Positions 175-64,000 of a stretch of 64,000 nt of DNA are shown here, piece by piece. Numbering within the stretch: position 1 is the stretch's first letter; each line of letters starts with the position of its first letter. The translations under genes were made by a program, and so were the position numbers. This stretch comes from Tridacna crocea (Eukaryota > Mollusca > Bivalvia > Cardiida > Cardiidae), in assembly GCA_943736015.1 (NCBI GenBank), contig OX031062.1, forward strand, positions 26,633,462 to 26,697,461, given 5' to 3'. The notes beneath the pieces were generated by a model. It saw nothing but the letters and a program-made list of their open reading frames with translations, did no database searches and was not told where the DNA came from.

Positions 175-282
175 CTGCTACTGAGGTTTTGGAAACGCCT
201 GAAGTCACCAAAACAAGCAGAACACCTTTCATGACAACTGGGTCAAGCCCTGCATCAGTTTCAACTGGTCCAACCACACCAG
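175..282 (+). CDS. Exon L1: Thr/Ser/Pro-rich linker
   Basis: The exon follows a T-rich tract ending in CTAG and ends CCA G before gtaagt. It carries 2 bases, 35 codons and 1 base (phase 1 in and out). The peptide is rich in Thr, Ser and Pro, with TTGSSP and GPTTPG near its end, typical of O-glycosylated spacers. The ending TTPG recurs in L3 and L4. Two same-orientation copies of the hairpin MITE flank it (ending at 108 and starting at 381). The upstream exon that donates the first G of codon 1 lies outside the window. Confidence 0.8.
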
Positions 283-380
283 GTAAGTTTCCTTCAAATC
301 AAAAAAGCTTCTTGTCATTTTGATTAACTGAAATTACTTTTGCAAGAATCAAATTTCTTGATCCACAAATTATTCTCCCT

Positions 381-609
381 TTAACCGATTACCATACAAC
401 AATATTTTAGACTGGTCCAAATTGAAAGCATTTGCAGACAACAAAATAAAAGTGACTGAAAATTTGAAATTTATTTTGTGAAAGCTTCAAAACATTGTGG
501 GAAAACGAGAAAATGCTGGTTACCAGCATTTTCTCCTTTTCCCACAATGTTTTCTAAAGGCTTCTTTCTCAGTGGTGTCAAAAGTAGGGATTGTATGGTA
601 ATGGGTTAA
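381..609 (+). mobile_element. Hairpin MITE copy 2, full length
   Basis: A 229-bp element runs from ttaaccgattacca to ggtaatgggttaa, with the central near-perfect hairpin at about 488-553. It starts ~100 bp after exon L1 and has the same orientation as copy 1. Confidence 0.9.
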
Positions 610-931
610 GTTTTGTAATGTGATCAAATATTGAAGAGTGTAACAAGAACCAATTCTATTGAAATTTCTACATAGATTTTAGCTTCAAAATATGGTAAAT
701 TTTCTGAGACTTTAAATACTTGAATTCTTTTCTATTTACATGTACGTTTGATATGTTCCAAAATGACAGGTTATACCCTAAGAAGTCTCCAAATGGGAAT
801 TAGAGGAACATTTTCATAAATGAAAAAGCCAATTTTGTCAATTTTGTAAGACCTTGTTGAGGCTTTAATTGTACATGAGTCTCTGCTGATTGAGTTAGCT
901 CTTTCTGTTTATGCTTAATTCCAACAGGACT
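609..931. other. Intron, nothing recognised
   Basis: AT-rich sequence of the L1-A1 intron between a MITE and the 19-bp repeats. I see no exon or known repeat. Confidence 0.6.
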
Positions 932-1006
932 AGTAATATCTGACGTCTTAAATCATATCTTACGTCTTAAATAATATCTGACATCTTAAATAATATCTGA
1001 TGTCTT
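932..1006 (+). repeat. Four 19-bp tandem repeats
   Basis: The unit taatatctgacgtcttaaa is repeated four times with one or two changes per copy. It lies in the L1-A1 intron. Confidence 0.8.
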
Positions 1007-1216
1007 AATTTTTTGTAGATGTTTAGATGATCAACCATATTTTTTTCAAAATCCTTGCTTAAACTCAGTAGCTGTTTTACTTTGGTCTATGACACTTTGT
1101 ATGAGTATTACTCATGAATCAAGGAGGTGCCTTTTGTTTTTGGGGTAATATGTGTCTAAGGTCAAGGTCACTGGTGATCTTTTTTGAAAATAATTTCATT
1201 TCTCTGATTAGCCTGC

Positions 1217-1444
1217 CTAACTCTTTCCCTAACGACAAATTTTGGACTCTTCCAAATTGAAAGAGTTTTCAGACGACAATTTTAGATTTTCAGAAAATGG
1301 CAGAAAGTTCTCAAAAAGGGTAAAAAACACTGTGGGAAAAGGAGAAATTGCTCGTTACGAGCAATTTCTACTTTTCCCACAGTGTTTTCAAAAGACTTTT
1401 ACTGCAGACACGTAAAAACCAGGGCTTGTTTGGGAAAGGGTTAA
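1217..1444 (+). mobile_element. Hairpin MITE copy 3, variant with CTCG arms
   Basis: Ends are ctaactctttccc and gggaaagggttaa. The centre is attgctcgttacgagcaat rather than the usual aatgctggttaccagcatt, yet both arms still match perfectly. Confidence 0.82.
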
Positions 1445-1611
1445 CAAAATGATAAATGTATGGTAATACATGCAATTAATGTAGATTAAGCTACCTTGTT
1501 TTGTGGGGGTAAAAAATGATGCTAAGACAGTTTAGATTAGATACATATCAAGTTGTTGTAGTATATACATGTAAATCTGAAATATCAATTTCGTGCAATA
1601 TTTGCAAGCAT

Positions 1612-4695: not shown

Positions 4696-4858
4696 GATGA
4701 ACCGAAGGATACATATGATGTGCCAAAGGTCCAGAATTACACGATATTTGGGTTTAAATCTTTAGATATTGAGTATGTGGAGATTGATTTTAATGCTGAA
4801 CAGGGTTCATCATTTGAGCTACTCGCTGTTGAAATGATAGGCTGTGTGAAACATGCAG
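4696..4858 (+). CDS. Exon B1: second half of Cys-bracketed domain 1
   Basis: It begins after ttcag in phase 0 and ends GCA G before gtaggt (phase 1). There are 54 full codons. The final part reads AVEMIGCVKHAG, which matches the closing pattern of other B exons (hydrophobic alternation, then a single Cys three to five residues before the end). An N-Y-T sequon occurs mid-exon. This is the most diverged B exon and lacks the L-N-x-x-P-P-G motif of B3 and B4. A TIR element starts about 10 bp after the donor. Confidence 0.82.
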
Positions 4859-4867
4859 GTAGGTTAA

Positions 4868-9530: not shown

Positions 9531-9981
9531 AGGATATTTGTTTTTTTTCGGTGTAAGATAGAAATTTATTTCATCGAGTGGACACCATCGGTAATATTTT
9601 CATGAGTGGCGCAGCCACGAGTGAAAATATTACCGATGGTGTTTACGAGATGAAATAAATTTCTATCTTTCACCGAAAAAAAAAACAAATATTCTATTTA
9701 TTTTATGCTTTTAACCCTTTCTGGGAGGAGCTTTATCAAAATTCAGTACAGTTCTTTTCCCTTATTCCCCGTGGCGTACCCCTCCCGCATAGCAACGTTA
9801 TGTCAAGCGCGTGAAGTGTAAGGTATATGACGTCATATTTCCCATCTAGTTGTTAGGCACGCGTGATTTACCTAGGCGACAAGAACATGAAAATCGGTAT
9901 TTTCACTGGTGGTACCAGTGTAAGATCGAAAAATATTTTCACTGCTATTTCTCGATATCCTACCGGAAAGCATGAAATAAA
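9531..9981 (+). mobile_element. Fold-back element, copy A
   Basis: It opens with taGAGGATATTTG and has ~80-bp complementary arms (9533-9700) around gtggcgcagccac, followed by a ~280-bp tail ending gcatgaaata. The tail holds a TGACGTCA palindrome. Copies at 49031 and 51696 share the same two ends; TA is on both sides of each copy. Confidence 0.85.
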
Positions 9982-10132
9982 ACCTGATATAGGTTTAAGT
10001 AGATACATGAACATGTATAGCCAATTGAACACATACAATTGACAGTGAAACAAGGACATATAACAACTCATGGAGCACTCCTATGTCTCACAACTTCACA
10101 TTATTTTTTTTTTAATATTCTCCACTATAAAG

Positions 10133-10690: not shown

Positions 10691-10971
10691 AAACCTGTAT
10701 TCCATTGAGCATAAACTCTTTCATGGCTTTAGGAAAGGGCATTAATGCAAAAGCCATTAAGGGTGATGGTGTGTATGATGCAACGGCCATTTTTGATGGT
10801 GCCGAAGTTCAGTTACCCACAGAAACAGAGAATGGAGAACCAGCTTCTCCAGGCATCAACATTCAATTTAATGAATCAACGGTTATCACAGATTTTAAAA
10901 TCGTCGTTCAGTACATGAAATTTCTCATGGTGACATTTACCACAAACCGGGAAGTGGTTTCCATGCCAGTG
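10691..10971 (+). CDS. Exon A2: first half of Cys-bracketed domain 2
   Basis: The exon starts after tgttttgtag and ends at CCA GTG before gtaaga; phase 1 to 0, 281 bp. With L2 it begins E-T-C-I, again with Cys third. It contains ATAIFDG, matching the IFDG box of A3 and A4, and an N-E-S sequon in the I-x-F-N-E-S-T segment. It ends with a T-F-T-T strand and MPV. Good codon continuity and a strong donor support it. It is the longest A exon (93 codons). Function unknown. Confidence 0.88.
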
Positions 10972-12666: not shown

Positions 12667-12826
12667 ACAATAACGAATGCAATGGTGAAGACAACAGCGG
12701 ACCTGTACAGTGCCGTGTTTGAAGATAATCCAGTACAAATGGTCACTATTTCTGAAATTGCAAGACCTGCCAGTCTACCAGATGGCTTTGTGCCAACGAT
12801 TACATCTGTGCAATTGGGAATATGTG
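12667..12826 (+). CDS. Exon B2: second half of Cys-bracketed domain 2
   Basis: The exon follows tgtttttgcag in phase 0 and ends TGT G before gtaaga, phase 1; 53 codons. It carries the B-exon ending: a Pro-x-Leu-Pro-x-x-F-V-P-T-I-T stretch, then SVQLGICG with the single Cys. B5 has the equivalent GLPDDVIPTVT and FTLC. A dimeric SINE ends only ~25 bp upstream of the acceptor, so the remaining branch point and pyrimidine tract are squeezed into that space. Confidence 0.88.
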
Positions 12827-12940
12827 GTAAGAAATTGTGCACTAGAATAAAAAATATAACATTAGGGTAAACAGTTATTTAGTCCCTAGAGATTCTATCC
12901 TTTACACATGACCAATGATATAGTGATAAGGAAGGTGTAA

Positions 12941-13143
12941 TTAATTCTTTACCAAAGATAAAATTCTAAGCTGGCCCAAATTGAAAGCGCGTGCCGATGA
13001 CAAAATAAATGTGACTCAAAAATTGAAATTTGTTTCCAGCAAGGTAGAAAATATTGTAGGAAAAGCAGAAAATGCTGGTTACCGGCATTTTCTCCTTTTT
13101 CCACAATGTTTTCTAAAAGCTTCAGGGTGTGGTAATGGGTTAA
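12941..13143 (+). mobile_element. Hairpin MITE copy 9, abutting copy 10
   Basis: It runs from ttaattctttacc to ggtaatgggttaa, with a ~25-bp deletion in the right subterminal block. Its right TTAA is also the left TTAA of copy 10. Confidence 0.88.
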
Positions 13144-13368
13144 CCCATTACCACACAATCCCTACTTTTGACGCCCCTGAGAAAGAAGCCTTTAGAAAAC
13201 ATTGTGGAAAAAGGAGAAAATGCTGGTAACCAGCATTTTCTCCTTTTCCCACAATGTTTTCTACCCTTCACTAAACAAATTCCAAATTTTCAGTCACTTT
13301 AATTTTGTCGTCTGCAAATGCTTTGAATTTGTACCAGTCTAAAATATTGTCGTTTGGTAATGGGTTAA
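13140..13368 (-). mobile_element. Hairpin MITE copy 10, abutting copy 9
   Basis: A full-length element runs from ttaacccattacca to ggtaatgggttaa in reverse orientation. It is inserted exactly at, or formed beside, the terminal TTAA of copy 9. Confidence 0.9.
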
Positions 13369-13770: not shown

Positions 13771-14000
13771 TTAACTCATTACCAGATGACGAAATTTTAG
13801 GTTTGTCCAAATCAAAAGCATTTGCAGATGACAAAATAAATATAATTGAAAATTTGAAATTTGTTTTGTGGGGGGTAGAAAACATTGTGGGAAAAGGAGA
13901 AAATGCTGGTTACCAGCATTTTCTCCTTTTTCCCACAATATTTTCTGAAGGCATCTTTCTCAGGGGCGTCAAAAGTAGGGATTGTGTGGTAATGGATTAA
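13771..14000 (+). mobile_element. Hairpin MITE copy 12
   Basis: It runs from ttaactcattacc to ggtaatggattaa with a full hairpin. It is the fourth copy within 1.1 kb (12941-14000). Confidence 0.9.
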
Positions 14001-14450: not shown

Positions 14451-15008
14451 AATCTTGGGGCATGCTTTTGCAATTGTGCTGCTCATTTGATACCTATTTA
14501 TAAATCTGATTCAACAAATGGAAAAGAACTCTACATACGATAACATGAATTGTCTGCCCTTGTCTGTATCAAAATAGCCTATATTTTCATTCTTGATGTA
14601 CTGTATATGTGGACATATACATGTGTTGGACAATTTGCGAATTTTCTACGTTTTGCATATGGAATTGTTTGCTAATTGAAGATACTTACTATTTGTTGGT
14701 ATGATTGTGAAAAAAGTATGAACAGAAATGTTTGGGAATTTTTCACATTTTCGACACTGCAAAAATTTCCATGTTGCAAAAATTTCCATGTAAACATAAC
14801 AAATTCTGGGTGGAAAAATTATCTTGTACTGACTCTATAGGTAAAGTAGGCTTTAGATAATAAATATATACTTATTTACACATTAGCTACAAGCTGATGT
14901 GTAATTGTGGGAAATCAACGAAACATGCTGCACACACATTACATTCTACACTTATGATTGCTTTTTTTAATTTGAAAAAGAAAGCATTTGATTTCTTTTC
15001 TGTTTTAG
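14451..15008. other. Intron upstream of L3, nothing but a tiny repeat
   Basis: A 17-bp tandem pair (tgcaaaaatttccatgt) lies near 14758-14792. No exon seen. Confidence 0.5.
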
Positions 15009-15071
15009 GGGTTTCCACCACAACGATTGGCCCATTTTCAACTCCTATTTCAGTTGAAGGTACAACACCAG
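15009..15071 (+). CDS. Exon L3: Thr/Ser/Pro linker
   Basis: A 63-bp exon lies after ttctgttttag and ends CCA G before gtaaat; phase 1-1, 20 full codons. The peptide starts GVSTTTIGPF and ends EGTTPG. The start GVSTT is shared with L4 and the end TTPG with L1 and L4, so L1, L3 and L4 are likely paralogues. It joins B2 to A3 in frame. Confidence 0.82.
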
Positions 15072-15358
15072 GTAAATGTCCACATTTTGATAACATTTTC
15101 ATCTTGTACTTATAGCTGAGGTATTACAGTTCCTCACTTTATTTTTACAATTACATTTATGTTTATGGCAATGCATTTTATAATTTGATATGTCATCTTT
15201 TCATCAATATTCTTACAGTACAGGACTATATGTAAGTACCAGCAGCCCACACAAGTTTAAATCCTAAGTTGCATGATTAAGTTTGAACAGACTGGTACAG
15301 TGTAGTTAGAACTTAGTTACTTGTTTTACCTTTGTTGTCTCAGTTTTCCGTACACATT

Positions 15359-16880
15359 TGAGCTCACCTGAGCACAGAGTTCTCTAGGTGAGCTTTAGTA
15401 ATAGCTTTAGTGATAGCGCTGTGTTTGTTTTCCTTCATGCTCTGTTAGTCATGCATCGTCCAGACATCAATAATTACCTTATTTGCACTCTAGAAGCCAC
15501 CTGTACAATACTCAAAAACTTGGACGGAATATTTGTCTTGATATCTCGAATGTAATATTGGTCAAAATGGAGGAAAACACTAGTAACAAGGTCAAATCAA
15601 AGAAAACTTTTCATGCACTCTAGAGACTAGATATTCAGTCTGACACTCATGAAACATAGAAAGTTTGTCTTGATTTTATCTCGGACAAGATTGATATTCA
15701 GTCATATTGGCGTGAAAGAAGGTCCAATCTTTGAAAAACCTCGTGCTCTCTGTTTTCAGTCTGATACTCATTATAATGTTCAGAATGTTTGTCTTGTAAT
15801 TATCTCAGACAAATGCAATATTAATGCTGTTAGGCAAAAAGGTAGGACATCAGGTCAAATCTTAGAAAAATATTGTGTGCACTCTAGAGGCCACATTTTC
15901 AGTCTGATTCTCATTAATATTGCCAGAATGTTTGTCTTAATGTTATAACCGACATTTATAATATTAGGTCATGATAGGTAAAAGGTACATGTCAGGCACC
16001 AAGTCAAATCTAAGAAAAACCTTGGTTACACTCCAGAGGCCACATTTTCTGTCTGATTCTTATGAAACATGGTCAGAATGTTTGTCTTGATGATGTCTTG
16101 GACAAGTTTGAAATTGGGTAAAAAGCTCAGTCACTGAGCTAAATCATAGAAAATCTTGTGTGCCCTCCTTTTCAGCATAATTGTAATGAAAATTGTCAAC
16201 ATCTTGTCTTGGCGATATCACAGATAAGTTTGAACCTTGATCTATTTGAATTGTAAAGAGGGTCATAGGGTAATATTCAGAAAATCCTTTTGTCCAATGT
16301 AGAGGTCACATTTTTAGTCTGGTACTCACGAACCTTTGTCACTTCTGAACAAAAGGTAAGCCACTGGGAAAAATCCTTCCAGAAGCCACATTTTGAATCT
16401 GATACTCTTGAAACTTTGAATATTTGTCTTGAAGATATCTTGGACATGTTCAAATCTGGTTACTTGTAGTTAAAAAAGAGGTCTCCATGTCAAAAATATA
16501 ACAATCTTCTTTGCACTCTGGAGGTGAAATAAAATGTCTGATACTGCTGTAACTTGGTCAAAATGTTTGTGTTGCTGGTATCTGGGGCATGTTTAGATGG
16601 AAAGTAAGGTCACAAGGTCAGATCTTAGCAAAAATTTGTGTACACTTTACAGGCATTATTTTCAGTCGATTGTTCATACAACCTCGTATATATGTTTGTC
16701 CTTATGATATTTGGAACAACTTCTAATCAAATCAGTTTCAGTGAAAATGTAGGTCTCTCGGGTAAATCTTAAGAAAAATGTGTACACTGTAGAGGGAGAA
16801 ATTTAGGTACGATATTCCATGAAAAGTGGTCAGGATGTTTGTTTTGACGGTATCTTGGAAAGATCTGAAATCTGAATTGT
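15359..16880 (+). mobile_element. Helentron-like element with ~160-bp tandem monomers (1)
   Basis: The start is agctcacctgagcac...aggtgagct. About nine diverged monomers follow, each with gaggccacattttcagtctga, tcagaatgtttgtctt, aagtttgaa and ggtcaaatct words. No clean 3' hairpin is found, so the 3' end is uncertain. Family assignment is from structure (tandem core plus inverted subterminal pair) and is an inference. Confidence 0.7.
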
Positions 16881-17505
16881 GAGCAGTTGGCTTTTTTAAT
16901 TGGAATATATTGATAAGCTACCAGTATAAGTACCTCAATCCCTTATCGACAAAAACAATAATAATGATTGAAGATGAGATCGAACAAAATTCCCAGACAC
17001 ATGAAATAATTCAGGTTCAAATACATCTGACATGCTGAGGAAAATTACACTCGGTAATCAGATTATTAGAGATATGGATTGAAGCATATAATTGGTAGTT
17101 AACATGGACCTTAAATGCATTTTGAAGTACAAGATAAATACAGGATGCATGGCATCATAGAAGCTGCAGTGTTTTGGTGGACACTTTCAGAAATATGGAC
17201 TCTCTTGCTAAAATGCAGAAAAAAATAGATAATTCTAGAACAAAGGGAGGAGCTTGCATAAGAATCTTTCATTATCATTTTTATAAACTGATAATGCATA
17301 TGTGAAAAAAAAATGTGAGGACATTGGAAATTTAAAATTTCTCTTCAAAATTTGAAAATATAGAAATTGCGCAATCAAGTACAGCATTATCCATGTATTG
17401 AAATTACTATTTAAACTTCTGTAGGGGTATTGAAAGCGATACTGTGGAATTATGTAAATATTATTAAAGGTGATATTAAGATCATTGTTATTCATGTACA
17501 ATTTT

Positions 17506-18644
17506 TACCTCCACTGGCCAAAGGCAGCGGGTTTATGTCATGGCCAGGTGTCTGTCGTGCGTCAGCCCATGCATGTGTCCGTCCATCTGTGGGTGCATTA
17601 CCTTTTATTTAAAAAATTTGTTCTCTGAAACTAGCTATTCAGTTTTGATGAAACCTCAAAGAAATGATCTTTGCATGGTCCTCTTCAAAATTCTTTGACC
17701 AAATTTGATACCTTCAAAAACTCTGGTTGCCATGGCAACAAAATTGAAAAATATTGAAAAATTTTTGAAAGTCTTCTTGTCTGAAACCATAAGGCCTAGT
17801 TCTACCAAATTTGGTATATAGCTGTATCTAGTGGACCTCTACCAAGTTCCTTCAAATAAAAGCCATGGGGTCAAAGTTGGCCTCACCCTGTAGGTCACAG
17901 ATTTTATATAGGCTTATATAGGGAAAACTTTAAAATCCTTCTAGTACCTATCCATAGGGCATTGGGTTACCAAATTTGGCATATTTCTTCATCAAGTGAT
18001 TGTCTACCTAGAGGGCCCCAAATTATAGCCCGGTGGTCAAATTTGGCCCAGCCCTGTGGGTCACAACTTTTATATGGGTTTATAAAGGGAAAACTTTTAA
18101 AATCTTCTCATATTACCAAGTCGAAAGGGCTACTCAGTTTGGCATCTAGCTTTTTAGTTATCTACCAAGGGTGCCTGAATTACAGCTCTGGGATTTCATT
18201 CAGCCCCATTTTGGAGGTCACAAAGTTTTTTCATGTGCTCATATAGGGAAAACTTTAAATATCTACTTGTAGCTAGCCAAATTTTAAACTTTATAAGTCA
18301 TCTTGTTAATAACCTAATAAAGACTAGGGCTACTAAATTTAGCCCTGTCTTATGGGTCTCGTGCTTTACAGGGCCTTTCATAGAGAAAACTTTGAAAATC
18401 TTCTTGTTTATAACCACATATTGGTATGGGGCTCTATATTGTGGACCTCCACCAGGATTCAAGTAATTATAGCGTTGCGGTCAAAATTGGCTTCGGCCAG
18501 GGGTCATAATTTTCGCATAAGATTTTATAGATAAAATTTTTATGTCTTCAAGTTTGAAACCAATTGGCAAAATATTGTAATGTTTGGCTTGTGTTTTTAC
18601 TTATTAGGCAGTGGAGCAATACAGGGCCATCATGGCCCTATTGT
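17506..18644 (+). mobile_element. Helentron-like element with ~170-bp monomers (2)
   Basis: It starts cctccactggcc and ends ggcagtggagcaatac followed by the palindrome gggccatcatggccct and attgtt. The 5' ctccactg pairs with 3' cagtggag. The interior has degenerate tandem units with ccaaatttggyat, ggtcacagattttata and gggaaaactttaaa. Confidence 0.75.
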
Positions 18645-19232
18645 TATCAATTATCTTTTTTTAGTGTTTCATTTAAAAAAAAATGATTTATATAATATTC
18701 AGCAACTTTATTCTTAAACATGATCTTCCTGTATCTTAGCCTGCTTGTAACAAGGTGAATCTTCACATTTCTGCTCCAGAACCAGCATGTTTTACCAAAG
18801 TCTCCATGACGTCATTTCCCAGCGACGTTAGTTTTTATTGAATTTTGGTAATCAGAAGGTAGATTGTTTTTTGTCAGTGTACTTAATTTTTGTACAATAA
18901 AACAGGGAAATTTTGAGTACCACGCACTGGAATGGTAAAACTTTGCATTATCATAAGTTTGTTGTACGGTCACCTAGCAGGGGACTTGAAAACTTGTTAT
19001 GTCTGTTACAAATAATGTTGCCACCTCGCCTTTGGCTGCGGACGACATGATTCTCCACAGCTGTGAACAAGTTTCCAAGTCTCCTGCCATCTGACCGTGC
19101 AACTGATAATGTAAATTAGTATTTTAGTAGTGCATATTCCTTGTCATTTTAAGTTGATGAAACATGTAATTAGTATCCTTTTTATTTGTTCATTTGTTTT
19201 GTAAAAGGCAGGTCACTTTGGATATTTTTCAG
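18645..19232. other. Intron upstream of A3, nothing recognised
   Basis: AT-rich intron; no repeat or exon recognised apart from the A3 acceptor region. Confidence 0.5.
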
Positions 19233-19504
19233 GAGTCTGCCAAAAGATACGAATTCGCTCATCCAATGCATTAGAGATAGGTGTCCTTGCAGAAGTACAT
19301 CCATCTGATGAGAATAGTCTAGGGATTTTTGATGGGAGTCCACTGGAACTGCAAGCACAGAATGAGACCGGAAATACAGAGCAATCAATTTACTTCTCCT
19401 TTATCGAACCAGTCAGACTTCTAACGTTTCTTTTCAAGACACAAAACATCGAATCCTTTAACATGACATATTTGACTCAAAATGGTGATACTACAGTACA
19501 TGTT
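19233..19504 (+). CDS. Exon A3: first half of Cys-bracketed domain 3
   Basis: The exon starts after atatttttcag and ends CAT GTT before gtaagt; phase 1 to 0, 272 bp. It begins GVCQKI and contains SSNA, then GIFDG, then an N-E-T sequon, an aromatic strand, and NIESF. It is the closest relative of A4 (shared GVCQKI, SSNA, GIFDG, N-I-x-S). The pair A3/A4 with B3/B4 is the most similar outside the terminal tandem, which implies an earlier whole-cassette duplication. Function unknown. Confidence 0.9.
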
Positions 19505-19596
19505 GTAAGTTTTTCAGAATTGCCTGGTAACATTTCTGCTAAAACACTTCAAAAACAAGATTAATATATGGCTGGCAATACACGAAAAGGGGCATT

Positions 19597-23815: not shown

Positions 23816-23818
23816 CTA

Positions 23819-47736: not shown

Positions 47737-47853
47737 AGGAAAACGTGTGTGACAGGCCGGGTACATTCAAATGTCGTGCGGGTAACTGTATTGATACCGG
47801 AATGATAAATGATAGCAAATGTGACTGTTACATACACTGCGATGATGAACAAG
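47737..47853 (+). CDS. LDL-receptor class A-like six-cysteine exon
   Basis: The exon follows gtatgttttag and ends CAA G before gtaagg; 2 bases, 38 codons and 1 base, phase 1-1 like the linkers. The Cys spacing is C-x7-C-x4-C-x10-C-x-C-x3-C, with TFKC, GNCI, KCDC and CDDE. F-x-C-x-x-G-x-C-I followed by C-D and an acidic D-D-E is the LDLa signature. The spacing around Cys4 and Cys5 is non-standard and the usual S-D-E-x-x-C6 is missing, so LDLa-like is the safe name. LDLa domains normally bind Ca2+ through acidic residues near the end. A hairpin MITE ends only 20 bp upstream of the exon. Confidence 0.72.
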
Positions 47854-49030: not shown

Positions 49031-49482
49031 ATAGAGGATATTTGTTTTTTCGGTGAAAGATCGGAATTTATTTCATCGAGTGGACACCATCGGTAATATT
49101 TTCACGAGTGGTGCTGCCACGAGTGAAAATATTACCGATGGTGTTCACGAGATGAATTAAATTTCTATCTTTCACCGAAAAAAAAAAAAAATTCTATTTA
49201 TTTTATGCTTTTAACCCTTTCTGGGAGGAGCTTTATCAAAATTCAGTACAGTTCTTTTCCCTTATTCCCCGTGGCGTACCCCTCCCGCATAGCAAGGTTA
49301 CGTCAAGCGCAAGAAGTGTAACTTGGTATATGATATCATATTTCCCATCTGGTTGCTAGGCACGCGCAATTTACCTTGGCAACAAGAACGTGAAAGTCGG
49401 TATTTTCACTGGTGGTGCCAGTGTAAGATCGAAAAATATTTTCACTGCTATTTCTCGATATCCCACAGGAAAGCATGAAATA
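49031..49482 (+). mobile_element. Fold-back element, copy B
   Basis: Same ends and arms as copy A (taGAGGATATTTG to gcatgaaata). The TGACGTCA palindrome is altered to tgatatca. It abuts the start of the Penelope-like remnant. Confidence 0.87.
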
Positions 49483-51350
49483 AAGATTTTTATTATCACA
49501 CACCACCACTTAATTATCCTGTATTTATAAAACGAAAGTTTTTGAACTGCTTAGATATGAAAATTACTATCAAAAAAATCCCAGAGAGTAATCAATTACA
49601 AGTTTTCAACAACATCAAAAATCTTATAGCAGAAAACAAAAGATTTTTTTTATCGAAATTGCAATGTAAAACCAGTCCTTTTTATGGCTCAGGTAAAATA
49701 CATAAGAACTAAATTATTCAAAACTCTTGTTCTAATAACCATGTAGACTGTATTGAAATTTCTGTTTCTGTAGGCTTAACACTAAACCTATGACAGTAGG
49801 CCCTGTTTGCAAAACGAGTCGTCTGAGCTCTGTTTTGGATAAGTAACTTAAACCTTATAATTATGAAAAAGGCACAAAGCTACCTACTGGTTAACATTGT
49901 ACTTTATTCCTGAAAATGTTTCAGTGCAGAGTACACACGTTTGATTTGACATTGTCAGTCTATATACTGAATTCCACACAGTCTAGGACTAAAGTCTATA
50001 TATATATACATGTATTTCCTTTTGGATGGATAAGCATCAAGAATTGCTGTCAGAACGTTTTAGTAATATGGTTAATTTGCGGGTTCTTCAAATTATTCTC
50101 AAAAACAACATTTTTTCATTTGATAAATCGTTCTATAACCAAATCAAACGTACAGCAATGGGAACTAAAGTGGACCCTACATATGCTACTCTTGTCCTTG
50201 GGTTTCTAGAGGAAATACCCTACCAAACGGTAGAATACGAAAAGGGTAACGTATTTGCTAAATTCGTACGTGATCAATGTAGAAGATATATAGATGACTG
50301 TTTTATATTCTGGCAAATATTATTGGGAGAGCTGGCTTATTTTTGTACGGCCGTTAATTCTTTCCATAAGGATATTTTGTTTAAGATACAAACGATTGAT
50401 AATCAGTCACCCTCTCTTGATGTTATGGTCATCAAAATAGATACAAGTTTCAGTTTCCACCGGCATTGAAGTCTACAGATTCTAAGCAGTATTTAAATTT
50501 CAAGTCATGTTATCCAAAACATACTCAAATCAACATCCAAGTTTCCTTGGCTCGTAGAATATGAACCGTTGTTTCTGATATAAGTCTTCGTAATTCTCGT
50601 TTACAAGAATTAACTTCTTCATTGATTGGCTGGAATATCTGGACGGTGCAGATGAAAAAAAAAAAGATTCATAAAAGCATTACGCATTCCAAGAAACAGT
50701 ATTTTAACAGTTAAAGAAAAGACTTGTGGAGTCCGGGGTCGTCGGGATTTTTCATTGGCCCACACGTTCGGCGCGAGTACTGGTGTAGTTCCTAGGAAGC
50801 AGAATCGAGAGAGATAAGCTCTATAAGTTGTTAGAACTTGTTTCTCAATCGATGTAAAATACATGTATATATGTTTAAACTTAAAGAAAAGACTGAAAAA
50901 TCTATTTTACCATTCGTATCCACCCTCAATCCTCAAAACAATTAAATACCGGTATTCGGATTGCTAAGATGTAACTTGACAATTCTAAGCGGGGATGAAA
51001 AAATGAGTAGTCACAGACACTAAATTCATAAAATGTAAAAGGCAGCTCCCTAATCTTACACACCTTATTACGCGGTCGTAGTTCCACAAGCAAGACACAG
51101 CCACTTGCATAAAAAGGTGGAGAACCACGTTAAGGACTGTGTGATTATATTATTGAAGGTAATAACATTAAATTAAATGATGAAACGTTTTTTTGTTAAA
51201 AAAATATGAAATGTACAGTTAAAAATGTTATTTATGTTTTAATTTGTACTCTAGGGATTTTTACATCGGATATACTGATGACAAATAAAGGAACAGAAAA
51301 ACAGTATATTATCAACAAGTCAGAGATGTATAAACAAGACAAATGCCTTT
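49483..51350 (+). pseudogene. Broken Penelope-like retroelement (reverse transcriptase)
   Basis: An open stretch at 50026-50469 encodes RT motifs: an F-x-x-x-F-Y-N-Q-I-K-x-T-A-M-G-T block, then RRYIDDCF with the YIDD core. Upstream, in another frame, lies SPFYGSGKIHKN, the usual L-P-K-I-H-K region. Downstream are TDSKQYLNF with YPKHTQ and SLARR, the block after the RT thumb in Penelope-like elements, and further on KRQLPNLTHLITRS. Stops, frame changes and a SINE insertion at 50725 show it is dead. No GIY-YIG endonuclease was recognised. It lies in the intron before L5. Confidence 0.82.
50725..50880 (+). mobile_element. 5'-truncated SINE inserted in the Penelope-like element
   Basis: The 156-bp insert is bordered by a perfect 14-bp duplication (ttaaagaaaagact at 50711-50724 and 50881-50894). 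The body tcattggcccacac, gtactggtgtag, ggaagcagaatcg and acttgtttctcaatcgatg matches the SINE inside the tandem units. Confidence 0.9.
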
Positions 51351-51517: not shown

Positions 51518-52279
51518 GCTACCCAATTTGCCTGTAATTGATTAGCATTCGATCATTCTGTAGCTTTACCAAATGTTGCTCTTTCCTGTAGAGTTGTTGC
51601 GTTTACAACAATTGACAGAAAGCTTAATCATCTTAACTACGTGGTATTGTCATAGTCAAATAGACGTTTAACCTTTTGCCGGTAAATGTATGACATAGGG
51701 GATATTTGTTTTTTTCGGTGTAAGATCGAAATTTATTTCATCGAGTGGACACCATCGGTAATATTTTCACGAGTGGCGCAGCCACGAGTAAAAATATTAC
51801 CTATGGTGTTCACGAGATGAAATAAATTTCGATCTTTCACCGAAGAAAACAAATATTCTATTTTTTTTTATGCTTTAAACCCTTTCTGGAAGGTGTTTTA
51901 TCAAAATTCAGTATAGTTCTTTTCCCTTATTCCCCGTGGCGTACCCCTCCCGCATAGCAACGTTACGTCAAGCGCGTGAAATGTAAGGTATATGACGTCA
52001 TATTTCCCATCTGGTTGTTAGGCACGCGCAATTTACCTAGGCAACAAGAACGTGAAAATCGGTATTTTCACTGGTGGTACCAGTGTAAGATCGAAAAATA
52101 TTTTCACTGCCATATCTCGATATCCTACCGGAAAGCATGAAATAATTGTTGATATCTGTCCTTTTCGTTGGTCTTTCATACAGCCTGGATGTAAGTGATG
52201 GACGTTAAGAAATCATACTTCCCACGCTGTTTATTCTGAAGTGCATTGGCATCATTTATAAAACTGAACTATGTCACTA
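51518..52279 (+). repeat. Diverged relic of the cassette tail (unit 0), split by a fold-back element
   Basis: The stretches 51518-51696 and 52145-52279 match the last ~310 bp of units 1 and 2: cattctgtagctt, tgacagaaagcttaatc, tagacgttta, ttgttggtc-like and gaact-atgtcact words occur in the same order. It ends at the same tgtcact where units join. A ~447-bp fold-back element sits inside it. No A or B exon of this older unit is seen upstream, where a Penelope-like element lies. It could instead be an independent dispersed repeat that forms the unit's tail. Confidence 0.7.
51696..52145 (+). mobile_element. Fold-back element, copy C, inside the relic cassette tail
   Basis: Same structure as copy A. 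Comparison with the tandem units, which lack it, gives an empty site and supports a short TA-type target duplication. TGACGTCA is present. Confidence 0.87.
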
Positions 52280-52960: not shown

Positions 52961-54004
52961 CCCCCTTCGAAGAAGCGGGGGTATATTGCTTTGCACTTGT
53001 CGGTCGGTCCGTCGGTCGGTCCGTCGGTCCATAGATCACAATTTTGTCCGCAGCATAACTCAAAAAGTATTTCAAGTATTATCTTGAAACTACATAGGTG
53101 ATAGATCTCATTAAGGAAGAAGTGCAGTGCACAAGAATCATAACTCTGACCATCATATTTATGGAGTTATTGCCCTTTGTTGATTTTCATACTTAATTTT
53201 TGTCCGGAGCATAACTCAAAAGGTTTTTCAGGTATCATCTTGAAACTTTATATGTGGTTAGATCTTATTCAGGAAAAGTGTAATGCACAAGAACCATAGC
53301 TCTGTCCATCATATTTTGCAGTTATTTCCCTTTGTTGATTTTCATACTTAATTTTTGTCCGGAGCATAACTCAAAAAGTATTTCAGATAACACCTTGAAA
53401 CCTCATAGATGAATTAATCTTATTAAGGAGACGTGCAGTGCACAAGAACTATAACTCTGCCCATCATATTTTTGGAGTTAATGCCCTTTGTTGATTTTCA
53501 TACTTAATTTTTGTCCGGAGCATAACTCAGAAAGTACATGTATTTCAGGCATCATCTTGAAACTACATAGGTGGATAGATCTCATTAAGGAAAAATGCAG
53601 TGCACAAGAACTATAACTCTGCCCATCATATTTATGGAGTTATTGCCCTTTGTTGATTTTCATGCTTAATTTTTGTCTGGAGCATAACTCAAAAGGTTTT
53701 TCAGGTATCATCTTGAAACTTTATATGTGGATAAATCTTATTCAGGAAAAGTGTATTGCACAAGAACCATAACTCTGTCCATTTAATTTTTGCAGTTATT
53801 TTCCTTTGTTGATTTTCATACTTAATTATTGTCCGGAGCAAAACAAAAAAAAGTATTTCAGGTATCACCTTGAAACCTCATAGGTGGATTAATCTTATTA
53901 AGGAGACGTGCAGTGCACAAGAACTATAACTCTCTCCATCATATATTTGGAGTTATTGCCCTTTGTTGATTTTCATACTTAATTTTTGTCCGGAGCATAA
54001 CTCA
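52961..54004 (+). repeat. Seven ~157-bp tandem units after a gggggtata head
   Basis: The head is ccccccttcgaagaagcggg and gtatattgc, then a 12-bp ggtcggtccgtc run (52998-53031). Units start at about 53046, 53199, 53356, 53512, 53676, 53828 and 53986 with tttttgtccggagcataac, cttgaaac-t, gtgcagtgcacaagaac and gttattgccctttgttga. Units are well conserved, so this is a younger array. Confidence 0.88.
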
Positions 54005-55636: not shown

Positions 55637-55854
55637 AATGGTGGATAAAGTGTAACAATGTAAGCGTTAACTGTTATAAGAGACCGTTATCAGTGTTCTT
55701 TTTCTGATAGCAGTAAGCTCAGCTAACACGGATATAAAGATATTGTAGTCATAATTTCGAGTAATGGCATTTATTGCTATAAATACATTTGGACTACCTT
55801 CTACTGAGTGCTCATCAGCTGAGTGTGATTGGACATTCATTTTCTCACTTACAG

Positions 55855-56133
55855 AAACTGAAGTGTCAAGCAGTGGTAAACCATCACTATCTGAAGGAAG
55901 TACCCTAGGAAAGTCTTCTTCGCCTGAAGGACGTACAACTAAATTGACAGCATCATCAGGATCACAAACCGAGCCAAGTTCAAAAAGTGAAGGGACATCT
56001 GGACCATCGACCTCTGGTCCAGCAGCACCTCCAGGTGCAACCACTGTAGGCCCCCCTGCCACATCTGCAATACTTACCCCTGGCAAATCTCCCTCTCTCA
56101 GTGGAAGAACTTCAGCACCAACAACACAACCCA
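55855..56133 (+). CDS. Exon L5: long Ser/Thr/Pro/Gly mucin-like linker, tandem unit 1
   Basis: The exon follows ttctcacttacag and ends CCC A before gtaaga; 92 full codons, phase 1-1. It is far longer than L1-L4 and dominated by Ser, Thr, Pro and Gly. GKPSLSEG near the start and GKSPSLSG near the end suggest internal expansion of a short motif. No Cys is present. It is probably heavily O-glycosylated if secreted. It differs from L6 and L7 by one visible codon (Glu versus Gln in SQT-E/Q-PSS). The minus strand here is also open, which reflects composition and is not a gene. Confidence 0.87.
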
Positions 56134-57115
56134 GTAAGAAGCATTTTTGATAGTTGTATCATAATCATACTGCTATCGCGAAAAACTGAAGTTTATTCAA
56201 AGTGACCAAGTACCCAGTAAAGGGGTTCGGATATAGATTGATGAACAGAAAAAGATTTCCTGTTGAAAGAAATCGACATTTGATGCATTTCGTCGTAATC
56301 ATGCACAGTTAAAGATATGGTTAAGGTTTAGACGGAGATCCAAAGTGATAGAGTCAAGTCCTGACCTCGATTTCAGTCTTTCTCTGTAATAATTCACAAC
56401 GGACGTCCATGTAAGTTATAATTGAGAGATTTCTTAGTAACGATCTTGCAAGATTACTTGGTAATGTTTATCTGTTTACTTGGGTGTCTTGTTAAGGTGT
56501 TTTTGGGATAAGACCTCTACGACTATTCATACAAAGTCGGAAGAATAAGAAATGTGTTGTATAAAACTGGCTTGCTTACGGTTAATCAGGTAGATTATGC
56601 CACGATTTTGTGAAGTCAAAATCGATGTCATGATATTGCCGAGGTTGCATCAGATTTTACAGGAATAATCAAGAAAATTGCTAAATGAGGGTTGCATGTA
56701 GTAATGCATAACTGTAGGAAATAAAGAGATTGTCGTCTCCTAGCTGAAAGCTACGTTGATGCTAGTAAGAATTGCCTTAGGCAACTTAGACAAAATAGAG
56801 CTGTTCCCATCTTTATTTCCCGTTTGCAGTTGATAAACACTTATAGTGTTAGTCCAAGAACGGATACATGGGATGAAGCAAACACATTTGATGGATATGA
56901 AAGCATAGTCCTGAGAGGTTGTGAAGAAAGGTACTTTATTCCGATGTGCACATTGGATGGTAGGGCAGAAGCGATATAGTTACTGTATGTGGAAAGAATT
57001 GGGTATTTCACCATGCAGTTTTTCACTTATGTTTCTAAGTATTGCTTCCCTTTTGAAGATAAATGACGACAAGCAGGCGTCCACTGTTAAGGATACTACT
57101 TTTTATATTCTTCAG

Positions 57116-57369
57116 AGCAATGTGAACGTCGTTATATTAGCTCACCTGACGCGGATGGTGTAAGTGTCAGTATTAAAGACTTTGAGGATGATGTTGAAAG
57201 CCTATTGAGCGGAGAAGAGGTGCCAATTCCTAAAGTGAACAACGAGTCGGTTTATACGATCACATTGAACCCAGCTGAAGTTGTCATGGATTTTGTTATC
57301 ACTTTAAGCAACATTGAGTCAGCAACTGTGGACTTCACACGAGAAGGAGAAGAGGAACCAATTTCGAGG
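57116..57369 (+). CDS. Exon A5: first half of Cys-bracketed domain, tandem unit 1
   Basis: The exon follows tatattcttcag and ends TCG AGG before gtaact; phase 1 to 0, 84 codons. Joined to L5 it starts K-Q-C-E, with Cys third. It has ISSPDADGVSVSI, matching the SSNA-x-x-x-GV start of A3 and A4, an N-E-S sequon, and the NIESA segment matching NIESF/NIDSL. It lacks the IFDG box and is acidic. Identical in unit 2 as far as I can read. Confidence 0.88.
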
Positions 57370-57584
57370 GTAACTTAGTAAAACTTTTTTTTGCCACAGT
57401 GACAAAAAATAGTGATTTATTTCATTATTTAATCTTTTATTAACAATTATAGTGAATTTTCTGTAAACAAAGGGGAATAGCAACAATTCTGATATTCTAT
57501 TTCATGTTTTACTTTTAGATGTGGTACCTTTAATAATATGACAAATTGTAACAATTTTGATTTAAAGATATTCATGTAATATCG

Positions 57585-57790
57585 ATTGAGAAATAAGTTC
57601 TTACAACCTACACTAATCTGTCACGATTCTGCTTCCTGGGAAGTACACCAGTACTTGTGCCGAGTGTGTAGGCCAATGAAAATCTCAAGTTGACACCCGC
57701 TTCTGGGTTTCGAACTTGAGGTGTTATGGTTACAAGGCCGACGTTCTACCTCACAACGACGGACACCACACAAAGGTTTGCTAGTAACAA
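57585..57790 (-). mobile_element. tRNA-Thr-like SINE inside tandem unit 1
   Basis: On the minus strand a tRNA-like head contains an anticodon-loop-like CTTGTAACC and a B-box-like AAGTTCGAAACCC. The tail contains ggaagcagaatcg and aacttatttctcaatcgat. The tail is shared with 50725-50880 and 54005-54070. It lies in the A5-B5 intron and is copied with the unit, so it predates the tandem duplication. Confidence 0.7.
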
Positions 57791-58041
57791 GTTTACTCGT
57801 ATGCGTTAGAAAACTCTAAAGAAAATGGCCACCAACCCAATTCTATGCAGCACTTATACATTCTTTTTATTTCCAATGCAATAAAACAATGGTACGGATT
57901 TGCATCTACCAACAGAATCTACAGCTTCTTCTCTGTATCTCAATTATTTGCCATTTCGAGAATAGTGAAAGTTTTGGAGAGGGTATCCGAAGTTGAACTA
58001 TAATTATTAGATATGTTATCGTCAGTTTTGTTGTATTCCAG

Positions 58042-58213
58042 GATATTAATGTCCGTGAAGAGCCTTCACCGATAAACGCATTGTCGCCCGAAATTTCTGG
58101 TGAACCAGTCCAATTAATTGAAATACGTAATATTGTGCCAACAGAAGGTCTTCCGGACGATGTAATTCCCACAGTAACTGTCGTATCTTTCACATTGTGT
58201 AAGAAGCCCAAAG
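58042..58213 (+). CDS. Exon B5: second half of Cys-bracketed domain, tandem unit 1
   Basis: The exon follows gttgtattccag in phase 0 and ends AAA G before gtaatg; 172 bp, identical in length to B3 and B4. It contains IEIRNIVP, GLPDDVIPTVT and FTLCKKPKG. The single Cys near the end is the partner expected for A5. It joins L6 in frame, forming a Glu codon. Confidence 0.88.
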
Positions 58214-59189
58214 GTAATGTTATATTCTACTGTTTGAGGGTAGTGTTTAGTCGCATGTAATTGGAAACTTTGTGGCATATTTCAAATTTCCGACTGAAAA
58301 GTGGAACATTTATATCAGACTGAGTGTCTCTGTGTAACACTTAAAATACTTTTTGGTTGGTTCCAGATAGAATTTTTTTCACTAAATGAGTGCAGTGATA
58401 TTAAATTGGGCTTGCCTTTGGCGAGCTTAACGACACATTTTGGTAGATGAGTTTAAAAAGGGGTTACCTTTGTACTGTCTCAAACCTTTGAAAGATAAGA
58501 AAATTTGAAATTGCTGAATTACTTTGAAAGCAATGGAGGTTATATGATAAGCTACCTTTTTCTGTGTGTTTGATTGTGTGTGTTTTCGACAGTTTTATGA
58601 TTTGGGCAAATACCAATTTTCAAAAAGCAGTGGTCCCCCAATTTGGGTGTAATTTATTAGCATTTGTTCATTCTGTAGCTTCTTACCAAATAGGGCTCTT
58701 TCCTGTAGCGTTGTTCCGTTGACAACAGTTGACAGAAAGCTTAATCGTCCGACTATGTGGTAATGTCGTAGTAAATTAGACGTTTACCCTTTTGCCAATA
58801 AATATATCACTTGTTGGTCGTTGTCCTTTTTGTTGGTCTTGCATACAATACAGCCTTGATGCAATTGTTTGATTTTAAGAAATCAGGTAGGATGTGTATC
58901 AGAGATCAGACTGCACGTACTGTTAATTCTGAACTGCATCTGCATCATTCACAAAACTGAATTATGTCACTAATGGTGGATAAAGTGTAACAATGTAAGC
59001 GTTACTTGTTATAAGAGGCCGTTATCAGTGTTCTTGTTCTGATAGCAGTAAGCTCAGCTAACACGGATATAAAGATATTGTAGTCATAATTTCGAGTAAT
59101 GGCATTTATTGCTATAACTGCAATTGGACTACCTTCCACTGAATGCTCATCAGCTGAGTGTGATTGGACATTCATTTTCTCACTTACAG

Positions 59190-59468
59190 AAACTGAAGTG
59201 TCAAGCAGTGGTAAACCATCACTATCTGAAGGAAGTACCCTAGGAAAGTCTTCTTCGCCTGAAGGACGTACAACTAAATTGACAGCATCATCAGGATCAC
59301 AAACCCAGCCAAGTTCAAAAAGTGAAGGGACATCTGGACCATCGACCTCTGGTCCAGCAGCACCTCCAGGTGCAACCACTGTAGGCCCCCCTGCCACATC
59401 TGCAATACTTACCCCTGGCAAATCTCCCTCTCTCAGTGGAAGAACTTCAGCACCAACAACACAACCCA
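59190..59468 (+). CDS. Exon L6: mucin-like linker, tandem unit 2
   Basis: Copy of L5 shifted by 3335 bp, with identical splice borders and phase. The only coding difference I see from L5 is the Gln in SQTQPSS. The sequence just upstream, in the intron, has a few more changes than the exon itself. Confidence 0.87.
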
Positions 59469-60450
59469 GTAAGAAGCATTTTTGATAGTTGTATCATAAT
59501 CATACTGCTATCGCGAAAAACTGAAGTTTATTCAAAGTGACCAAGTACCCAGTAAAGGGGTTTGGATATAGATTGATGCACAGAAAAAGATTTCCTGTTG
59601 AAAGAAATCGACATTTGATGCATTTCGTCGTAATCATGCACAGTTAAAGATATGGTTAAGGTTTAGACGGAGATCCAAAGTGATAGAGTCAAGTCCTGAC
59701 CTCGATTTCAGTCTTTCTTTGTAATAATTCACAACGGACGTCCATGTAAGTTATAATTGAGAGATTTCTTAGTAACGATCTTGCAAGATTACTTGGTAAT
59801 GTTTATCTGTTTACTTGGGTGTCTTGTTAAGGTGTTTTTGGGATAAGACCTCTACGACTATTCATACAAAGTCGGAAGAATAAGAAATGTGTTGTATAAA
59901 ACTGGCTTGCTTACGGTTAATCAGGTAGATTATGCCACGATTTTGTGAAGTCAAAATCGATGTCATGATATTGCCGAGGTTGCATCAGATTTTACAGGAA
60001 TAATCAAGAAAATTGCTAAATGAGGGTTGCATGTAGTAATGCATAACTGTAGGAAATAAAGAGATTGTCGTCTCCTAGCTGAAAGCTACGTTGATGCTAG
60101 TAAGAATTGCCTTAGGCAACTTAGACAAAATAGAGCTGTTCCCATCTTTATTTCCCGTTTGCAGTTGATAAACACTTATAGTGTTAGTCCAAGAACGGAT
60201 ACATGGGATGAAGCAAACACATTTGATGGATATGAAAGCATAGTCCTGAGAGTTTGTGAAGAAAGGTACTTTATTCCGATGTGCACATTGGATGGTAGGG
60301 CAGAAGCGATATAGTTACTGTATGTGGAAAGAATTGGGTATTTCACCATGCAGTTTTTCACTTATGTTTCTAACTATTGCCTCCCTTTTGAAGATAAATG
60401 ACGACAAGCAGGCGTCCACTGTTAAGGATACTACTTTTTATATTCTTCAG

Positions 60451-60704
60451 AGCAATGTGAACGTCGTTATATTAGCTCACCTGACGCGGATGGTGTAAGT
60501 GTCAGTATTAAAGACTTTGAGGATGATGTTGAAAGCCTATTGAGCGGAGAAGAGGTGCCAATTCCTAAAGTGAACAACGAGTCGGTTTATACGATCACAT
60601 TGAACCCAGCTGAAGTTGTCATGGATTTTGTTATCACTTTAAGCAACATTGAGTCAGCAACTGTGGACTTCACACGAGAAGGAGAAGAGGAACCAATTTC
60701 GAGG
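60451..60704 (+). CDS. Exon A6: first half of Cys-bracketed domain, tandem unit 2
   Basis: Copy of A5 (offset 3335 bp). I see no differences in the exon, including the N-E-S sequon, the starting Cys and both splice sites. Confidence 0.87.
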
Positions 60705-60919
60705 GTAACTTAGTAAAACTTTTTTTTGCCACAGTGACAAAAAATAGTGATTTATTTCATTATTTAATCTTTTATTAACAATTATAGTGAATTTTCTGTA
60801 AACAAAGGGGAGTAGCAACAATTCTGATATTCTATTTCATGTTTTACTTTTAGATGTGGTACCTTTAATAATATGACAAATTGTAACAATTTTGATTTAA
60901 AGATATTCATGTAATATCG

Positions 60920-61125
60920 ATTGAGAAATAAGTTCTTACAACCTACACTAATCTGTCACGATTCTGCTTCCTGGGAAGTACACCAGTACTTGTGCCGAGT
61001 GTGTAGGCCAATGAAAATCTCAAGTTGACACCCGCTTCTGGGTTTCGAACTTGAGGTGTTATGGTTACAAGGCCGACGTTCTACCTCACAACGACGGACA
61101 CCACACAAAGGTTTGCTAGTAACAA
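60920..61125 (-). mobile_element. tRNA-Thr-like SINE inside tandem unit 2
   Basis: Copy of the unit 1 SINE carried along by the 3.3-kb duplication, at the same place between A6 and B6. It is not an independent insertion. Confidence 0.7.
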
Positions 61126-61372
61126 GTTTACTCGTATGCGTTAGAAAACTCTAAAGAAAATGGCCAGCAACTCAATTCTATGCAGCACTTATACATTCTT
61201 TTTATTTCCAATGCAATAAAACAATGGTACGGATTTGCATCTACCAACAGAATCTACAGCTTCTTCTCTGTATCTCAATTATTTGCCATTTCGAGAATAG
61301 TGAAAGTTTTGGAGAGGGTATCCGAAGTTGAACTATATTAGATATGTTATCGTCAGTTTTGTTGTATTCCAG

Positions 61373-61544
61373 GATATTAATGTCCGTGAAGAGCCTTCAC
61401 CGATAAACGCATTGTCGCCCGAAATTTCTGGTGAACCAGTCCAATTAATTGAAATACGTAATATTGTGCCAACAGAAGGTCTTCCGGACGATGTAATTCC
61501 CACAGTAACTGTCGTATCTTTCACATTGTGTAAGAAGCCCAAAG
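61373..61544 (+). CDS. Exon B6: second half of Cys-bracketed domain, tandem unit 2
   Basis: Copy of B5 (offset 3331 bp, after a 4-bp deletion in the preceding intron near 61336). The exon is identical to B5 as read, ending in the single Cys and a phase 1 donor. Confidence 0.87.
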
Positions 61545-62520
61545 GTAATGTTATATTCTACTGTTTGAGGGTAGTGTTTAGTCGCATGTAATTGGAAACT
61601 TTGTGGCATATTTCAAATTTCCGACTGAAAAGTGGAACATTTATATCAGACTGAGTGTCTCTGTGTAACACTTAAAATACTTTTTGGTTGGTTCCAGATA
61701 GAATTTTTTTCACTAAATGAGTGCAGTGATATTAAATTGGGCTTGCCTTTGGCGAGCTTAACGACACATTTTGGTAGATGAGTTTAAAAAGGGGTTACCT
61801 TTGTACTGTCTCAAACCTTTGAAAGATAAGAAAATTTGAAATTGCTGAATTACTTTGAAAGCAATGGAGGTTATATGATAAGTTACCTTTTTCTGTGTGT
61901 TTGATTGTGTGTGTTTTCGACAGTTTTATGATTTGGGCAAATACCAATTTTCAAAAAGCAGTGGTCCCCCAATTTGGGTGTAATTTATTAGCATTTGTTC
62001 ATTCTGTAGCTTCTTACCAAATAGGGCTCTTTCCTGTAGCGTTGTTCCGTTGACAACAGTTGACAGAAAGCTTAATCGTCCGACTATGTGGTAATGTCGT
62101 AGTAAATTAGACGTTTACCCTTTTGCCAATAAATATATCACTTGTTGGTCGTTGTCCTTTTTGTTGGTCTTGCATACAATACAGCCTTGATGCAATTGTT
62201 TGATTTTAAGAAATCAGGTAGGATGTGTATCAGAGATCAGACTGCACGTACTGTTAATTCTGAACTGCATCTGCATCATTCACAAAACTGAATTATGTCA
62301 CTAATGGTGGATAAAGTGTAACAATGTAAGCGTTACTTGTTATAAGAGGCCGTTATCAGTGTTCTTGTTCTGATAGCAGTAAGCTCAGCTAACACGGATA
62401 TAAAGATATTGTAGTCATAATTTCGAGTAATGGCATTTATTGCTATAACTGCAATTGGACTACCTTCCACTGAATGCTCATCAGCTGAGTGTGATTGGAC
62501 ATTCATTTTCTCACTTACAG

Positions 62521-62799
62521 AAACTGAAGTGTCAAGCAGTGGTAAACCATCACTATCTGAAGGAAGTACCCTAGGAAAGTCTTCTTCGCCTGAAGGACGT
62601 ACAACTAAATTGACAGCATCATCAGGATCACAAACCCAGCCAAGTTCAAAAAGTGAAGGGACATCTGGACCATCGACCTCTGGTCCAGCAGCACCTCCAG
62701 GTGCAACCACTGTAGGCCCCCCTGCCACATCTGCAATACTTACCCCTGGCAAATCTCCCTCTCTCAGTGGAAGAACTTCAGCACCAACAACACAACCCA
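62521..62799 (+). CDS. Exon L7: mucin-like linker, tandem unit 3
   Basis: Copy of L6 (offset 3331 bp), identical as read, including the Gln that separates L6/L7 from L5. Units 2 and 3 are therefore closer to each other than to unit 1. Confidence 0.86.
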
Positions 62800-63781
62800 G
62801 TAAGAAGCATTTTTGATAGTTGTATCATAATCATACTGCTATCGCGAAAAACTGAAGTTTATTCAAAGTGACCAAGTACCCAGTAAAGGGGTTTGGATAT
62901 AGATTGATGCACAGAAAAAGATTTCCTGTTGAAAGAAATCGACATTTGATGCATTTCGTCGTAATCATGCACAGTTAAAGATATGGTTAAGGTTTAGACG
63001 GAGATCCAAAGTGATAGAGTCAAGTCCTGACCTCGATTTCAGTCTTTCTTTGTAATAATTCACAACGGACGTCCATGTAAGTTATAATTGAGAGATTTCT
63101 TGGTAACGATCTTGCAAGATTACTTGGTAATGTTTATCTGTTTACTTGGGTGTCTTGTTAAGGTGTTTTTGGGATAAGACCTCTACGACTATTCATACAA
63201 AGTCGGAAGAATAAGAAATGTGTTGTATAAAACTGGCTTGCTTACGGTTAATCAGGTAGATTATGCCACGATTTTGTGAAGTCAAAATCGATGTCATGAT
63301 ATTGCCGAGGTTGCATCAGATTTTACAGGAATAATCAAGAAAATTGCTAAATGAGGGTTGCATGTAGTAATGCATAACTGTAGGAAATAAAGAGATTGTC
63401 GTCTACTAGCTGAAAGCTACGTTGATGCTAGTAAGAATTGCCTTAGGCAACTTAGACAAAATAGAGCTGTTCCCATCTTTATTTCCCGTTTGCAGTTGAT
63501 AAACACTTATAGTGTTAGTCCAAGAACGGATACATGGGATGAAGCAAACACATTTGATGGATATGAAAGCATAGTCCTGAGAGGTTGTGAAGAAAGGTAC
63601 TTTATTCCGATGTGCACATTGGATGGTAGGGCAGAAGCGATATAGTTACTGTATGTGGAAAGAATTGGGTATTTCACCATGCAGTTTTTCACTTATGTTT
63701 CTAAGTATTGCCTCCCTTTTGAAGATAAATGACGACAAGCAGGCGTCCACTGTTAAGGATACTACTTTTTATATTCTTCAG

Positions 63782-64000
63782 AGCAATGTGAACGTCGTTA
63801 TATTAGCTCACCTGACGCGGATGGTGTAAGTGTCAGTATTAAAGACTTTGAGGATGATGTTGAAAGCCTATTGAGCGGAGAAGAGGTGCCAATTCCTAAA
63901 GTGAACAACGAGTCGGTTTATACGATCACATTGAACCCAGCTGAAGTTGTCATGGATTTTGTTATCACTTTAAGCAACATTGAGTCAGCAACTGTGGACT
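63782..64000 (+). CDS. Exon A7: first half of Cys-bracketed domain, tandem unit 3, cut by window end
   Basis: Copy of A5/A6. The window ends 35 bp before the expected donor (~64035). Everything visible is open and matches A6. More units may follow outside the window. Confidence 0.85.

Follow-up and report, generated by a model that had tools for sequence, protein, structure and literature searches.

A probable array of duplicating phase 1 exon cassettes in Tridacna crocea, encoding an extracellular protein with a domain that may be new

The stretch of Tridacna crocea DNA analyzed here (contig OX031062.1, positions 26,633,462 to 26,697,461; 64,000 nucleotides, hereafter the window) is probably the interior of one large animal gene that encodes a modular extracellular protein and grows by cassette duplication. 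All exons lie on the + strand. The duplicating unit would comprise an optional spacer rich in Ser, Thr and Pro, carried by one exon with phase 1 introns on both sides (phase 1-1), and after it a domain of some 145 residues that is spread over two exons, called A (phase 1-0) and B (phase 0-1). Since phase 1 introns lie on both sides of the domain, and likewise of the spacer, a whole unit can be duplicated, lost or skipped without breaking the reading frame, and each duplication would add one spacer and one domain with no frameshift. The array appears to have grown through tandem duplications of whole units, which would account for an age series that runs from old copies through a pair of intermediate age (copies 3 and 4) to a recent triplication of copy 5.

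Exon layout and reading frame

The G+C content of the window is low, at 33-39% in 4-kb steps. Dispersed and tandem repeats abound, there is no N, and the + strand has a handful of short islands that are open. Open islands together with splice sites define 20 exons: six Ser/Thr/Pro-rich linkers, seven A exons, six B exons and one exon with six Cys. The A exons, the seventh of which is cut by the window end, and the B exons carry AG/GT sites. The complete A exons have phase 1-0 and the B exons phase 0-1, while the linkers and the six-Cys exon have phase 1-1. When the 20 exons are joined in order they give a single frame of 1,330 residues without a stop codon, whereas reading this join in its two alternative frames gives 76 and 125 stops. 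The A+B pair is a symmetrical class 1-1 module, with phase 1 on both flanks and a length that is a multiple of three, and the linkers and the six-Cys exon share this symmetry. A Gly codon is split at five of the 13 phase 1 junctions and codons for other residues at the remaining eight. The exons are presumably transcribed and spliced together as laid out.

This arrangement had been anticipated from the letters of the sequence, in a prediction of seven A exons, six B exons and seven linkers with the phases given above. The numbers of A and B exons and the phases of the complete exons were borne out. The seventh linker was not: six were found altogether, and scans of the stretch between B1 and A2 revealed none there. 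The 1-1 exon with six Cys (47737-47853) may have been counted as the seventh. Also in need of correction is the treatment of copies 5-7 as independent, since these are one copy triplicated and the seven A exons therefore represent five distinct sequences. The imbalance between seven A and six B exons arises because the window ends inside copy 7.

Since each linker and each complete A+B pair is symmetric, skipping any of them would also keep the frame, and the copies could serve as alternative or skipped cassettes instead of all being joined in a single protein. The exons have splice sites and open frames, and the sequence is otherwise neutral on this point; we regard such use as unlikely.

Likeness among the copies

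That these are real exons is supported most strongly by copies 3 and 4. A blastn comparison of the stretches 14500-24900 and 24900-36000 (E 1e-3) gave 22 matches, the two best of which are the A exons (69.9% over 292 columns; 19225-19513 with 31255-31546) and the B exons (79.2% over 192 columns; 20971-21162 with 34379-34570). The likeness ends no more than 11 bases from the predicted splice sites, and the A-B introns of the two copies have no match to each other at the same threshold. The remaining 20 matches are taken for dispersed repeats. Over A+B the two copies have diverged under constraint, with a nonsynonymous divergence (dN) of 0.30 and a synonymous divergence (dS) of 0.54. Their exons lie at 19233-19504 (A3), 20982-21153 (B3), 31263-31537 (A4) and 34390-34561 (B4).

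Profiles were searched against 2,241 six-frame open segments of at least 20 residues. The A profile, built from the five distinct sequences, found all seven A exons and nothing more above threshold, and the B profile found the six B exons and no further B, in agreement with the predicted inventory. These full profiles include the exons that they recover, and each copy was therefore left out in turn. The leave-one-out profiles recovered both A and B in four of the five distinct copies, copies 2-5, against a best background E of 0.49-2. For copy 2 the E values are 9.8e-5 (A, 10691-10971) and 2.8e-6 (B, 12667-12826), and for copy 5 they are 7.7e-4 (A, 57116-57369) and 1.8e-4 (B, 58042-58213). The far lower values for copies 3 and 4 (A 1.5e-21 and 2e-15; B 1.2e-21 and 9.1e-19) rest largely on each other, because the two are 57% identical; identity among the old copies is 13-27%. 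The older copies probably arose by the same route as the recent ones.

A domain core recognizable across copies, as originally proposed, is thus found in copies 2-5 and fails for copy 1 in the profile and shuffle tests described below. The motifs named as common to the copies are partly shared, none of them by all five distinct sequences (SSNA in two, SSPDA in one, IFDG in three and N-I-x-S in three). More regular is the placement of Cys, which had been expected near the start and the end of each pair: all five distinct copies have exactly two, at residues 2-3 and 138-146.

A recent tandem triplication

Copies 5-7 form a head-to-tail triplication of 3.33 kb (55637-64000), each unit of which carries a linker, an A exon and a B exon. 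The units start at 55637, 58972 and 62303, and the third is cut by the window end. The left edge of the triplication lies in the intron that precedes linker L5, and its right edge lies beyond the window. Identity between the units is 99.44% across 5,033 bases and 99.06% across 1,698. In the aligned parts of units 1 and 2 there is no difference in the 426 bases of the A and B exons, so that A6 (60451-60704; 0 of 254 bases) and B6 (61373-61544; 0 of 172) equal their counterparts in copy 5, while the linker differs at one base, which changes Glu to Gln, and the introns differ at 18 of the 2,088 positions compared. The truncated A7 (63782-64000) is matched by the A profile. Taken with copies 3 and 4 and the single open frame, the triplication gives good support to the proposal that the repeat protein grows through duplication of a phase-symmetric cassette.

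Eighteen sites are both variable and covered by all three units, and 14 of these have one state in units 2 and 3 and another in unit 1. Of these 14, nine fall within the first 172 bases of the unit, at 55670-55808, as if there had been a partial exchange or an older left edge.

Linkers and the six-Cys exon

The linkers are placed by phase and splice sites. L1 (175-282) has AG/GT sites and is 56% Ser, Thr and Pro; L3 (15009-15071) and L4 (24940-24975), the latter of 12 residues, precede copies 3 and 4; and L5 (55855-56133), which encodes 93 residues, has a possible alternative in-frame acceptor further on, at 56023. L6 (59190-59468) and L7 (62521-62799) are its counterparts in the second and third units. 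Across the four distinct linkers the content of Ser, Thr and Pro is 50-57%, as in mucin-like sequences, and these spacers may well be O-glycosylated.

The exon at 47737-47853 has six Cys within 38 residues, close to the six in about 40 of an LDL-receptor class A (LDLa) module, and has the phase 1-1 of such modules. Its best match in the PDB is the VLDL receptor (E 0.0074), followed by LDLRAD3 (E 0.028-0.043), and the eight best of the 12 PDB matches listed are LDL-receptor-type chains. The scan that produced this exon also produced one candidate with five Cys, on the - strand. In the 47737-47853 exon the Cys spacing toward the end departs from the usual LDLa pattern. LDLa is a module of secreted proteins, and the exon weakly supports an extracellular protein.

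Four tandem arrays sit in the long introns around this exon, at 53042-54004, 38421-39045, 40482-41012 and 37224-37440, with units of 156, 161, 191 and 108 bases, respectively.

Observations that weigh against a single cassette gene

Several observations count against reading the window as the interior of one such gene. No signal peptide, membrane anchor, gene start or gene end was seen within the window, and of the "secreted repeat protein" originally proposed the growth by cassettes stands while secretion is presumed. When sites are filtered without a filter on content, phase 1-1 candidates number three on the + strand and five on the - strand, so that the splice-site score by itself would not single out these exons. 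The dN/dS of about 0.55 between copies 3 and 4 shows only moderate constraint. The six-Cys exon lies below the cut-off of Pfam Ldl_recept_a (11.1 bits as against 24.1, E 0.5), and with introns as long as 13 and 8 kb on its two sides it may belong elsewhere, or exons may have been missed.

Copy 1 presents a further difficulty. Its A exon (2379-2644) is missed by the leave-one-out profile, with an E of 3.2 where the best background reaches 1.8, and its B exon (4696-4858) is absent from the corresponding list. When copy 1 is aligned locally with the four-copy profile, 125 of 200 shuffles reach its score. In global mode eight of 200 reach it, a result that is meaningless because the alignment, of eight columns, pairs the start of copy 1 with the end of the other copies. 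The acceptor of its A exon is also the weakest of 15 by a simple score (-2.2, as against 1.9 to 6.7). Copy 1 is therefore counted as a member by its position, its phases and its two Cys, including the terminal one in B, and not by its sequence.

Additionally, the triplication could in part be an assembly error. The units differ at 0.33-1.25% of the intron positions compared, a level that is possible for allelic copies, and units 5-7 might then be an artefact and not real cassettes. Against this, there are three units rather than two and they stand head to tail, the window contains no N, and the agreement of units 2 and 3 against unit 1 at 14 of 18 sites is expected from stepwise duplication. 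We consider it improbable that the near-identical units are artefactual, and the interpretation as one growing cassette gene is retained below.

The A+B domain

The domain had been described as unrecognized, and this holds as far as the searches go: none of the five copies has a Pfam match above the cut-off, and neither copy 4 nor a five-copy profile has a convincing match among PDB sequences. The A+B domain may be new by sequence, and could warrant an entry as a new family. A compact beta-rich fold with the two Cys adjacent had been named as a sign that would support the domain. Models of the separate halves are mainly beta, the A half with seven strands and the B half with three, and place the last Cys on the last strand, at low confidence (mean predicted local distance difference test score, pLDDT, of 54 for A and 67 for B). 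A fold search with the A half only (mean pLDDT 54) gave no match that reached E 0.001.

One reading is that A+B belongs, though greatly diverged, to the factor V/VIII type C (discoidin, galactose-binding-like) domains. It would then form a beta sandwich that binds glycans or lipids and is closed by a disulphide linking the first Cys to the last. Cys near both ends is a feature of the F5/8 type C family beyond the factor VIII domains compared here. All five distinct copies have a Cys near each end and a length of roughly 145 residues, close to the 150 or so of that family, and no other Cys, as in the C domains of factor VIII. The half models, at low confidence, are mainly beta; the end of B in copy 1 (ELLAVEMIGC) resembles by eye the end of factor VIII C2 (LRMEVLGC); and one carbohydrate-binding module 32 appears, weakly (E 3.0), among the 50 fold matches listed for the A half. 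The sequence profiles, in contrast, give no match in any of the five copies. PF00754 lists none of them at E up to 10, although HMMER filters drop most matches above 0.1, whereas true C domains match it in four of four cases at E 9e-24 or better. An HH comparison with seven C domains aligned just 11 columns. The best local alignment of the four-copy profile with C domains covers 10 columns, and its score is reached by two of 100 column shuffles, but the B exon is set against the first half of the C domains, which is not the corresponding place; 20 of 100 shuffles reach the global score. The PDB sequence profile search also lists no factor V/VIII type C domain. A sandwich of this type is accordingly a guess that the sequence does not support, and we view membership of the family as possible but doubtful.

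Somewhat better placed, and slightly favored by us, is another mainly beta extracellular fold, for which candidates include CUB-like, PLAT/C2-like and fibronectin III-like domains, the sandwich of the rhodopsin transducer family ASRT, and a lineage-restricted fold. Here the fold matches mean little, the model being of half a domain at a mean pLDDT of 54 and no match reaching E 0.001; ASRT itself lies under the Pfam cut-off, and copies 2-5 have no match to it. The two Cys would probably form a disulphide.

Repeats and other sequence in the introns

Two dispersed repeats are located in the introns of copies 1-4. One, of about 230 bases, has seven copies (381-610, 1216-1445, 12940-13169, 13771-14000, 25037-25266, 28964-29193 and 29838-30067), and another, of 229 bases, has six (at 3262, 5884, 11512, 13140, 13508 and 28154). 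An element of 75 bases occurs in 28 diverged copies, at 16043-16117 and 27 further places up to 43024, several of them about 140 bases apart; it resembles what we presume to be a repeat common in bivalve genomes. A repeat of about 450 bases has three copies (9545-9990, 49045-49493 and 51710-52155), the last two of which are 91% alike over 277 bases. The region 49479-50466 contains open fragments whose translation reads like a degenerate Penelope-type reverse transcriptase.

Relation to known systems and significance

Symmetrical class 1-1 modules are described in PMC8001218 as standard material and a mark of exon-shuffled, mostly extracellular animal modules, with a Gly codon expected to be split at phase 1 proto-splice sites. 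The array agrees with that account in its phase 1 flanks, its lengths divisible by three and its split Gly codons at five of 13 junctions, which partly fit the proto-splice explanation. It differs from the modules treated there in that the domain spans two exons with a phase 0 intron of its own and is duplicated together with a separate spacer exon, that the domain matches no family found, and that eight of 13 junction codons are not Gly. On the same account the original description of a notable protein-evolution system is overstated. PMC1553488 indicates that extracellular repeats may expand through exon shuffling and that duplications of several domains are commoner than those of single domains. 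Like the repeats discussed there, the present domains are extracellular and enlarged by internal duplication inside a repeat region; unlike them, the recent event copies one domain with its spacer and not several. The mode of growth is a known, textbook one, while the domain may be new to the Pfam and PDB sequences searched.

The protein itself might act as a multivalent adhesive or matrix protein. A bolder proposal, which we rate as quite improbable, is that A+B is a family without a described relative and that the copy number of the array is still changing between individuals, so that the length and valency of the protein vary within the species; this would liken it to recognition or adhesion molecules under diversity selection. 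With its old, middle-aged and very recent copies lying next to one another, the array cleanly illustrates how a gene for an animal extracellular protein can gain domains by way of phase 1 introns. If copy number does vary between individuals, it would be a useful case for watching domain gain happen.

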